In this document: positions 49,475 to 52,011 of the stretch, in pieces
How positions within the stretch are numbered: position 1 is the first letter of the stretch
How the letters are laid out: every line of letters starts with the position of its first letter
Assembly (NCBI GenBank): GCA_947441065.1
Contig: CANESI010000003.1
Coordinates: 62,001 to 126,000 of the forward strand
DNA from: Caulobacteraceae bacterium
GTDB taxonomy: Bacteria > Pseudomonadota > Alphaproteobacteria > Caulobacterales > Caulobacteraceae
DNA length: 64,000 nucleotides
Direction of reading: 5' to 3'
Notes under the pieces: generated by a model
What the model was told of the DNA's origin: nothing
Seen by the model: the letters and a program-made list of their open reading frames with translations, nothing else
Databases searched by the model: none
Translations under genes and position numbers: made by a program

Positions 49475-49993
49475 ATGATCACGATCCGATTGGCAACAGT
49501 CGATGACGCCGCCGCTCTGGAATCTGTGGGTCGCGAGACCTTTACCGAGACCTTTGGCCATCTCTATCCGCCCAAGGACCTGAAGGCCTTTTTGGACAGC
49601 GCCCATCTGGCCGAAAACTATCGCGCTTGGATCGCGTCAGACGCTTACGGTGTATGGATCGCCGAGCAGGACGGTCAAGCCGTCGGATACGCCGTCGCCG
49701 GGACCTGCGACTTGCCCCATCCCGACGTAACCCCGACCTGCGGCGAGCTGAAGCGGATCTATCTGCTCAACCGCGCGCAGAACGGTGGGGCTGGCACCCG
49801 CCTTATGACCGCCTGTTTCGATTGGCTCGTCAAGCCGGGGCGTCGCCTATGGATCGGCGTCTGGTCGGAGAACCATGGTGCCCAGCGTCTCTATGGACGC
49901 CACGGCTTTACCAAGGTCGGCGAATATGAATTCCCCGTCGGTGAAGTCCGGGACCGAGAATTCGTCCTTAGTCGGCAGTATAATTTAAAGTAG
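49475..49993 (+). CDS. GNAT-family N-acetyltransferase
   Basis: 172 residues with the GNAT fold: an N-terminal ITIRLATVDDAAALESVGRE, the acetyl-CoA site region LKRIYLLNRAQNGGAGTRLM and the C-terminal GVWSENHGAQRLYGRHGFTK. The loop reads QNGGAG, a usable form of the Q/R-x-x-G-x-G/A motif. It is 6 bp after dxs, so may be cotranscribed. The substrate is unknown. Confidence 0.92.
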   Translation: MITIRLATVDDAAALESVGRETFTETFGHLYPPKDLKAFLDSAHLAENYRAWIASDAYGVWIAEQDGQAVGYAVAGTCDLPHPDVTPTCGELKRIYLLNRAQNGGAGTRLMTACFDWLVKPGRRLWIGVWSENHGAQRLYGRHGFTKVGEYEFPVGEVRDREFVLSRQYNLK

Positions 49994-50035
49994 TGATTAT
50001 AATTATATAACTCAAAGTCACAGTTTGTGATTTAC
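49981..50035 (+). promoter_or_regulatory. AT-rich promoter region with two palindromes
   Basis: A sharply AT-rich stretch after the GNAT gene, with the perfect palindrome TATAATTATA (49998-50007) and TCACA-GTT-TGTGA (50018-50030) flanked by AAA and TTT. Probable promoter and operator of the recombinase-like gene at 50150. Confidence 0.55.
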
Positions 50036-50149
50036 ACCCCCATTTCGCGTCACGTAACAACCTCTTGGCTGAACAACGGCCATCAGAGTCGCGAGGCCGT
50101 AACATGCCGACAGATGCGACCTGACGTTCATTATCGGGGCTCGATCTCT

Positions 50150-50704
50150 ATGCTGCGCATTGGTTATATCTGTGACATCGACCTTGTCTCAAACAGGGGC
50201 ACTGACGAACAGTCATCCATCACCCCTCAAATGGAGGCGGATCGCGCTGCTCTGGTTGAAGCAGGCTGCAGAGTTATACGTGTTGAGACCGCACGGCCAC
50301 CGCGCGCGGCCTGCGGCCTTGTGTTGCAGTCCATCGTAGATTTTGCTGAACAGGGCGACGAGATCGTGGTCACCCGTCTAAACCAGATCGGCAGTTCCAG
50401 CGCCGCTGTGCTGGGCCTCTTACAGACCTTGAAGACGCGCGGTATTGGTCTGCGCCTGCTGGACCCTGGCCTGAATCGGCCTGGGTTGGTCGACGACGCC
50501 TTCATCCATACGTTGGAAATGATCTGCAGCCTTGATGGCCGCCTCGGCAGTCGCCAGATGGCAAGTCACGGAACCGGTCGTCGCAACCGCGTCACCACCG
50601 ATGACATCCGCTCGCTGCAAGCGCGCGGCATGGGCGCTGGACAGATCGCCGAAACCCTCCACGTCTCGCGCATGACGATCTGGCGCAAGCTGAAAGAGGC
50701 CTAA
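50150..50704 (+). CDS. Serine recombinase-like DNA-binding protein, catalytic residues missing
   Basis: 184 residues from the ATG at 50150 (upstream in-frame starts at 50027 GTG and 50114 ATG are less likely). The whole length follows the resolvase/invertase plan: IGY start, a DRAALVEAGC helix, EQGDEIVVTRLNQIG strand-turn, and a C-terminal GRRNRVT arm plus helix-turn-helix (AGQIAETLHVSRMTIWRKL). However, the usual YARVS serine motif reads YICDI, and the LDRLGR motif reads LNQIGS, so the nucleophile and key arginines are absent. I infer a DNA-binding protein without recombinase activity, perhaps a regulator. No mobile-element boundaries are visible around it. Confidence 0.8.
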   Translation: MLRIGYICDIDLVSNRGTDEQSSITPQMEADRAALVEAGCRVIRVETARPPRAACGLVLQSIVDFAEQGDEIVVTRLNQIGSSSAAVLGLLQTLKTRGIGLRLLDPGLNRPGLVDDAFIHTLEMICSLDGRLGSRQMASHGTGRRNRVTTDDIRSLQARGMGAGQIAETLHVSRMTIWRKLKEA

Positions 50705-50832: not shown

Positions 50833-52011
50833 ATGTTCATGCGCTTCTTTTCCGAGCTTCGTCAGGCCCGCGTCCCGGTCTCTCTCAAAGAGTACCTGAT
50901 GCTGATGGAGGCCATGGACAAGCAGGTCATCGACCGCACGGTCGAGGATTTCTACTTCCTGTCCCGTTCGGCCCTGGTCAAGGACGAGAAGAACCTCGAC
51001 AAGTTCGACCGCATCTTTGGCAGCGTCTTTAAGGGCCTGGAAAAGATCGACGACGACCACACCTCTGAAATTCCCTCCGAATGGCTGCGCCTTCTGACCG
51101 AAAAGTTCCTCACCGATGAGGAAAAGGCCGAGATCGAAGCGCTCGGTGGCTTTGATAAGCTGATGGAGACCCTTCAAGAGCGCCTGAAGGAACAGAAAGA
51201 GCGCCATGAGGGCGGCAATAAGTGGATCGGCACGGGCGGCACCTCTCCCTTCGGTGCCAACGGTTATAATCCCGAAGGCGTGCGCATCGGCCAAGACAAG
51301 GGCCGTCACGGACGCGCCGTTAAGGTCTGGGACAAGCGCGAATATAAGAACCTCGACGACACGGTCGAGCTTGGCACCCGCAACATCAAGGTCGCCCTGC
51401 GCCGCCTGCGCAAATTTGCCCGCCAAGGCGCGCCCGACGAGCTAGACCTGCACGGCACCATCAAGGAAACCTCGAACAAGGGCTATCTGGATCTGGTCAT
51501 GCGCCCAGAGCGGCGCAATACGATCAAGCTTTTGGTGTTCTTCGACATTGGCGGCTCGATGGACAGCCATATCAAGCTGGTCGAAGAGCTGTTCAGCGCC
51601 GCGCGTACCGAGTTCAAGAACCTCGAATTCTTCTATTTCCACAACTGCCTCTACGAGTCGGTGTGGAAGGACAATAACCGCCGCCATACGGAAAAGATCA
51701 ACACCTGGGACGTGCTCCACAAGTACGGCCACGACTACAAGGTCATCTTTGTCGGCGACGCGACCATGAGCCCCTACGAGATCACCTATCCCGGCGGCTC
51801 GGTGGAACATTGGAACGAAGAGCCCGGCGCCATGTGGGTTGACCGCGTCACCCAGATCTATCCGAGCACCGTCTGGCTCAACCCCACCGCTGAACGCCAC
51901 TGGGACTACACGCCCTCGGTTGGCGTTATGAAACAGTTGGTCAGCGACCGGATGTTCCCCCTGACCATTGAGGGGCTCGACAAGGCCATGAAGGAACTGG
52001 TTCGGGGATGA
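50833..52011 (+). CDS. CoxE-type VWA-domain protein
   Basis: 392 residues. An N-terminal helical part (FFSELRQARVPVSLKEYLML is the CoxE-family opening) is followed by a charged linker and a von Willebrand A domain (about 225-392) whose metal site reads DIGGSMDS (DxGxS). Such proteins usually work with a MoxR-type AAA ATPase in assembling or activating metalloenzymes, but no MoxR gene is in this window. It overlaps the tetR gene by 4 bp. Function not known. Confidence 0.9.
   Translation: MFMRFFSELRQARVPVSLKEYLMLMEAMDKQVIDRTVEDFYFLSRSALVKDEKNLDKFDRIFGSVFKGLEKIDDDHTSEIPSEWLRLLTEKFLTDEEKAEIEALGGFDKLMETLQERLKEQKERHEGGNKWIGTGGTSPFGANGYNPEGVRIGQDKGRHGRAVKVWDKREYKNLDDTVELGTRNIKVALRRLRKFARQGAPDELDLHGTIKETSNKGYLDLVMRPERRNTIKLLVFFDIGGSMDSHIKLVEELFSAARTEFKNLEFFYFHNCLYESVWKDNNRRHTEKINTWDVLHKYGHDYKVIFVGDATMSPYEITYPGGSVEHWNEEPGAMWVDRVTQIYPSTVWLNPTAERHWDYTPSVGVMKQLVSDRMFPLTIEGLDKAMKELVRG

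Follow-up and report, generated by a model that had tools for sequence, protein, structure and literature searches.

What does a resolvase do in its host when the residues that cut DNA are gone and no transposase stands beside it? In the window (the whole stretch of DNA that was analysed, 64,000 nucleotides), this question is raised by a gene at 50150..50704 on the forward strand, which the ORF, Pfam, phmmer, the structural model and the alignments identify as a domesticated, dead small serine recombinase of 184 aa. We consider it likely that a resolvase has here been exapted into a sequence-specific regulator, with the autoregulation of its ancestor kept. By the ORF check the frame is intact, running from an ATG at 50150 to the stop codon at 50702–50704. 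A longer ORF from a GTG at 50027 was set aside as an unlikely start, since the orthologs start with MLRIGY-type residues, with which the ATG at 50150 agrees. The gene is the sole match at E ≤ 1 in the whole 2.9-Mb genome.

The protein has the fold of the gamma-delta/Tn3 resolvases and is homologous to them. Pfam reports Resolvase (1.9e-5) and HTH_7 (2.4e-5), both passing the curated cut-offs, and phmmer matches the protein to the gamma-delta resolvase 1gdt at 2.6e-11. A profile of the dead family matches the Tn3 resolvase at 1.8e-17. Superimposing the AlphaFold2 model (mean pLDDT 80.8) on the gamma-delta catalytic domain 2rsl gives a Z of 15.4 and 1.7 Å over 109 residues. The top match in PHROGs is a DNA-invertase family (3.1e-8), and in NCBIfam nothing reached a cut-off. 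At the C-terminus, a three-helix HTH locates at 50597..50701 on the forward strand (model helices 150–158, 163–170 and 174–183; Pfam HTH_7 at residues 144–182). It is preceded by GRR (residues 143–145, 50576..50584, forward strand), which the alignment identifies as the counterpart of the minor-groove arm; an arm of the GRR type works in the minor groove. The Pfam matches, the 1gdt match, the model fit, GRR and HTH agree with the preliminary description, in which a serine-recombinase fold had kept its DNA-binding half. The same description had aligned the protein to gamma-delta-type resolvases along its full length. The homology, GRR and HTH stand, but the full-length alignment does not, because helix E is shortened. 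It spans residues 116–132 in the model, and 49/49 Phenylobacterium-type orthologs have no residue opposite gamma-delta E128 and G141. The shorter helix E could impair DNA binding.

We counted the catalytic residues in alignment A3, which holds the window protein, 60 of the 78 named loci and 12 of the 19 active-type loci (L119–L137). The 18 omitted named loci are close relatives of kept rows, together with L083 (internal stop), L105 (broken frame) and L107 (cut by the contig end). Among the 61 family rows are 49 of the Phenylobacterium type, seven of the window genus and five non-syntenic paralogs. The resolvase-type C-terminal HTH is present in 73/73 members, including the active relatives. 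In the alignment to 1gdt, codons 6–10 (50165..50179, forward strand) read YICDI in place of the nucleophile motif YARVS, with R8 changed to C and S10 to I. At codons 77–82 (50378..50395, forward strand), LDRLGR has become LNQIGS, with N for D67, Q for R68 and S for R71. The column of gamma-delta R45, a catalytic arginine, holds Gly in the window protein.

Across the family, an aligned Ser10 occurs in 0/61 members (one cell is a gap) versus 12/12 active relatives. R45 likewise occurs in 0/61 (two cells are gaps) versus 12/12, an alignment that is less certain because R45 sits in a variable stretch. R71 remains in 3/61 family members versus all 12 active relatives. Position 68 is Gln in 7/7 members of the window genus; 15/49 of the Phenylobacterium type and all 12 active relatives have Arg there. 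R8 is kept in 46/49 Phenylobacterium-type members (Lys in three) and in 12/12 active relatives, and gives way to Cys or Phe in the window genus. Position 10 is mostly Arg (40/49) in the Phenylobacterium type, and Ile, Thr or Val across the seven window-genus members. In a published account (PMC4499144), the scissile phosphate is described as contacted by R8 and R68, with R71 as a further, proposed contact. The joint gamma-delta alignment confirms what had been read by eye at YICDI and LNQIGS, the loss of the nucleophile and of arginines, and it restores no active-site Ser anywhere in the family. Judged from these columns, the catalytic chemistry is lost across the family, fully for Ser10 and R45 and near-completely for R71. 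A relocated active-site Ser was considered and rejected, with none aligned at position 10 in the 61 family members.

Orthologs were found in 7/7 genomes of the window genus and, at E ≤ 1e-30, in 75/101 Phenylobacterium genomes, the other 26 having no match at that threshold. Named carriers include Phenylobacterium haematophilum DSM 21793, P. deserti YIM 73061 and P. kunshanense BUT-10. The neighbourhood comparison revealed two conserved neighbours, a GNAT acetyltransferase gene upstream (49475..49993, forward strand) and a gene for a CoxE-like VWA protein downstream (50833..52011, forward strand). The CoxE-like gene follows in 60/78 named loci (some contigs stop before it), and 72/78 have one or more of the GNAT, CoxE-like and deacetylase-like genes. 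The core-genome setting without a transposase that had been proposed for the locus is borne out: the same GNAT gene lies directly upstream in 68/78 named loci, no transposase or mobile element stands beside the gene, and its neighbours in the window are core genes. The search for orthologs at the locus revealed a gene that is syntenic in two genera, with the substituted catalytic positions lost family-wide.

Selection was followed in 42 hand-chosen pairs, comprising the full set of 21 window-genus pairs, 19 close pairs of the Phenylobacterium type and two paralog pairs. The dN/dS ratio is at most 0.21 in 30 pairs and 0.24–0.37 in the other 12; nine of these set one sub-lineage of the window genus against its second sub-lineage, at dS > 1.3. 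Mean identity in the HTH exceeds that in the N-domain in the Phenylobacterium type (0.83 vs 0.61) and in the window genus (0.82 vs 0.65), and the two are about equal in the active relatives (0.50 vs 0.52). The HTH also holds residues that are invariant among the orthologs. The gene is under purifying selection, which is strongest on the HTH.

In a quick tree, the family and the active relatives split at SH-aLRT 100, on a tree that carries long-branch warnings. We further examined 20 CoxE-like loci, at which no family member was found (best E 0.36). In five of other genera (L168, L175, L177, L179, L183), the GNAT and CoxE-like genes adjoin without the gene; in L178 and L182, different genes lie between the two; in the remaining loci, the GNAT gene was not found near CoxE. 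One of the 20, L184, lies close to the end of a Phenylobacterium contig, and the genome carries the gene on another contig. In the CoxE tree, the window genus clusters with G022 (SH-aLRT 88) and not with Phenylobacterium. G019 and G021 adjoin Phenylobacterium in this tree, and neither has the gene at the corresponding place. Two histories are therefore possible: the gene was gained once and then lost in some lineages, or it was transferred from one genus to another.

The motif scan located three TGTNAC-type sites upstream of the gene, none assigned to a strand: site 1, GTCACA (50017..50022); site 2, the near-palindrome GTCACGTAACA (50049..50059), whose counterpart in L101, L102 and L103 is TGTCACGTAACA; and site 3, GTAACA (50099..50104). 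The preliminary description had seen no inverted repeats and no resolution site here. This has to be revised, since a res-like array of three TGTNAC sites, one of them near-palindromic, lies just upstream. By eye in the upstream alignment, CTTGGC (50064..50069, forward strand) is a candidate −35 box, and many Phenylobacterium orthologs have CTTGGC or CTTTGAC at the matching position. Inspection by eye found no convincing −10 box in the window, and single-strand folding of the region upstream of the gene is unremarkable (z −1.26).

The array is largely specific to this gene. Of the 55 merged TGTNAC sites in the 64-kb window, three fall within 110 bp of each other at a single place, 50017–50099, directly upstream of the gene. 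In L101, L102 and L103, the sole triple cluster likewise lies directly upstream of the gene; in L099, L100 and L104, where the recognition helix is nearly the same, there is no triple cluster. Across the 72 remaining named loci (799 kb), where the recognition helix is also nearly the same, there is a single triple cluster, upstream of the gene in L044. The ordered triple array with its spacers occurs once per genome in G000, G036 and G048, each time at this gene. It is missing from G001, and the match in G023 lies elsewhere, is unrelated and overlaps a long ORF.

TGTNAC is enriched upstream in both groups, with 23 matches versus 3.4 in shuffled sequences for the window genus (0/500 shuffles; the sequences are related) and 30 versus 7.4 for the Phenylobacterium type (0/200 shuffles), counts that include overlapping TGTNACA matches twice and exaggerate independence because the orthologs tested are kin. 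In a PWM scan built on 64 sites from the 10 motif-defining loci, the best site of the window is modest, and 6/60 shuffles are equally good. The spacing within the cluster differs from that of the active relatives, and most Phenylobacterium-type loci have no cluster.

The same hexamer accompanies active-type resolvases. L119 and nine plasmid genes (L196–L204) have several TGTNAC/GTNACA sites within 160 bp upstream, and triple clusters are present upstream in 10/10 of these loci. Together the ten regions contain 63 sites versus 6.1 in shuffles, TGTNAC having been picked by eye from these same ten regions. All ten genes keep GYARVS and LDRLGR/LDRLAR, and three of the nine plasmid loci (L196, L199, L203) adjoin a Tn3-family transposase, with L196 and L199 belonging to elements of Leisingera and Ruegeria. 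The recognition helices are nearly alike, SRMTVYR in the active type versus SRMTIWR. In a later check, L244 and L245, which have the helix SRMTVYR, showed four sites each within 102 bp upstream; both are close kin of L119, itself among the ten motif-defining loci. Six active-type genes with other helices (L249–L254) showed no array, with no more than one site in the 160 bp before the gene.

Most Phenylobacterium-type orthologs carry ATTGCNNNGATTTAAC, usually 90–97 bp before the start codon (65 aligned rows) and just upstream of a TTGRC box. The exact element occurs once each in 3/4 genomes, always at this promoter, and the fourth genome has none. Allowing up to three mismatches, it is found at this promoter in 4/4 genomes and in one other place, with one control match. 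The element is not a TGTNAC palindrome, and its half TTTAAC merely resembles TGTAAC. Within 2.5 kb upstream of CoxE at the 20 CoxE-like loci, there is one loose match (L181) and none in the other 19. In L099, L100 and L104, a comparable position is taken by TTGC-N6-TAAC, and one upstream element, since diverged, may therefore be common to both genera. We also considered ATTGCNNNGATTTAAC as a regulon element and rejected it, as the scans of four genomes gave almost nothing beyond its own promoter.

Two side observations concern these upstream regions. GTCACA stands about 60–62 bp upstream of the ATTGCNNNGATTTAAC element in L031–L037, L054, L062, L064, L076, L077 and L082 (48 bp in L034), and the carriers belong to separate Phenylobacterium-type sub-lineages. 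TGTCACAAAAGG in L031 and TGTCACAAATG in L033 are close to sites upstream of the active-type L199 and L196. Meanwhile, an AAACG-NN-CGTTCG-like element, noticed by eye, precedes the CoxE-like gene in L169, L175, L177 and L184; as these belong to several genera, CoxE seems to own a promoter element.

We searched the genomes for further targets with two patterns. GTNACGTNACA gave 29 matches in four genomes versus 9 for the control pattern, with seven cross-genome match groups. Four groups lie within long ORFs, and the groups of two genomes outside long ORFs are G000:C7 with G036:C5 and G036:C156 with G048:C510. A GTNACGTNACA regulon was rejected, the gene's own promoter being the sole intergenic match common to all four genomes. 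The canonical half-sites TGTNACAWWWGGGTG, allowing one mismatch, gave 4 matches versus 3 for the control in eight carrier genomes; at this control level, chromosomal targets of the strict form seem absent. G002 has an active-type gene, and its TGTNACAWWWGGGTG match, immediately before that gene, serves as a positive control.

Domestication is well supported by the single copy at a conserved place, the lack of a transposase, the catalytic loss, purifying selection and the higher conservation of the HTH. We propose that the ancestor would have been a resolvase akin to the ones found on Tn3-family transposons and plasmids of alphaproteobacteria. Its gene would have settled between the GNAT and CoxE-like genes and lost recombination while keeping the core fold, the basic arm and the HTH. 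The protein would now act as a sequence-specific DNA-binding regulator, whose HTH would bind the upstream TGTNAC-type sites and which would repress or tune its own promoter, as Tn3 resolvase does. At least one further target is probably controlled as well. Tn3 resolvase is described as controlling its own gene through res binding (PMC7157771).

The preliminary description had left the choice between a regulator and a nucleoid protein; the gene-specific upstream sites favour the former. An architectural, nucleoid-like protein would hold many weak sites and bend or bridge DNA without classical regulation. Resolvases bend DNA, and the small resolvase-type fold with its basic arm and HTH would suit such a role, as would the lack of a trans regulon in the genomes searched. 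Nevertheless, ATTGCNNNGATTTAAC is near-unique to this promoter in the four genomes scanned, and in three window-genus genomes the triple array occurs at this gene only, which points to specific sites and makes this reading unlikely. We regard it as quite unlikely that the dead resolvase serves as a host silencer in trans, occupying the res sites of incoming Tn3-family transposons and plasmids, repressing tnpR/tnpA promoters or poisoning synapsis; that it would block resolution and set its own level through a copied site is quite unlikely too. The near-identical recognition helix and the TGTNAC sites common to active-type plasmid resolvases, 3/9 of them beside a Tn3-family transposase, speak for a silencer, as does the control-level count of strict half-sites in carrier genomes. 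On the other hand, the gene sits among core genes, the main element upstream of most Phenylobacterium orthologs is a different one, and PADLOC returned nothing for P0001 and a weak match (0.0043) in the HTH region for L028.

It is very unlikely that an unrelated host regulator uses the conserved upstream elements as its operators while the protein acts elsewhere or through protein–protein contact. A widely used regulator should have many sites, and four genomes revealed one extra place; moreover, the window-genus motif agrees with the sites of the active relatives, although ATTGCNNNGATTTAAC, which is no TGTNAC palindrome, would fit this reading. That the gene is a decaying or non-functional relic is hardly credible. 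The active-site loss, the interrupted frames in 2/78 named loci (a stop in L083 and a frame break in L105, possibly assembly errors) and the 26/101 Phenylobacterium genomes without a match would allow it, but dN/dS is at most 0.37 in all 42 pairs, the HTH keeps its invariant residues and synteny extends over two genera. The dN/dS values contradict a pseudogene, and the gene is not the decaying orphan whose discovery was to speak against domestication.

The exapted regulator that we favour can be set beside three known systems. With the gamma-delta/Tn3 resolvase TnpR (PF00239 and PF02796) it has the fold, the domain order, the basic arm and the HTH in common. Unlike TnpR, the window protein has no Ser10, R8, R45, R68 or R71 and has a short helix E, and its gene has no transposase, a fixed chromosomal locus and an upstream element of its own. 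The SRMTVYR resolvases (L119, L244, L245, L196–L204), called active by their motifs, have a near-same helix and TGTNAC sites upstream; unlike the window protein, they keep GYARVS and LDRLGR/LDRLAR. Exapted transcription factors from mobile elements are known, among them SfsB/Ner and antitoxin-derived Xre factors, and in these, as would be the case here, a DNA-binding protein of a mobile element is kept as a host regulator. In the part of that source considered here, the factors are of the Xre and RHH types, and the serine recombinases mentioned work as recombinases (PMC8987985).

In the open-access literature searched, we found no description of a catalytically dead serine-resolvase regulator. 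The recruitment of mobile-element transcription factors is already known, and the version presumed here from sequence, with a serine resolvase, was not found described. It would present a mobile-element enzyme turned host regulator, in which the chemistry is dropped family-wide, the constraint is stronger on the DNA-binding half, and traces of ancestral binding sites persist upstream of the gene. Serine recombinases are textbook DNA-cutting enzymes, and the annotation "recombinase family protein" can cover non-recombinases. The 160-bp upstream operator candidate and the named strains make the hypothesis easy to test.

The family search returned eleven further matches, eight with active-type motifs and three paralogs (L246, L247, L248); seven of the eleven have GYAR(V/A)S with LDRLAR/LDRFGQ-type motifs. 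We notice a second paralog group that is non-syntenic and more degenerate (L092, L093, L095, L098, L106), three of its members in Phenylobacterium contigs and two matching contigs of other genera (G169, G008). No TGTNAC was found upstream of these five, despite a nearly identical recognition helix. L092 and L093 have common neighbours, and L095 has none in common with them. P. haematophilum has both kinds, the ortholog L086 and the paralog L095.

In the window gene itself, a TGTGACA site, which may be coincidental, falls inside the codons now standing in for the nucleophile motif (ATC TGT GAC ATC); the motif scan places it within codons 8–10 (50171..50177, no strand assigned).
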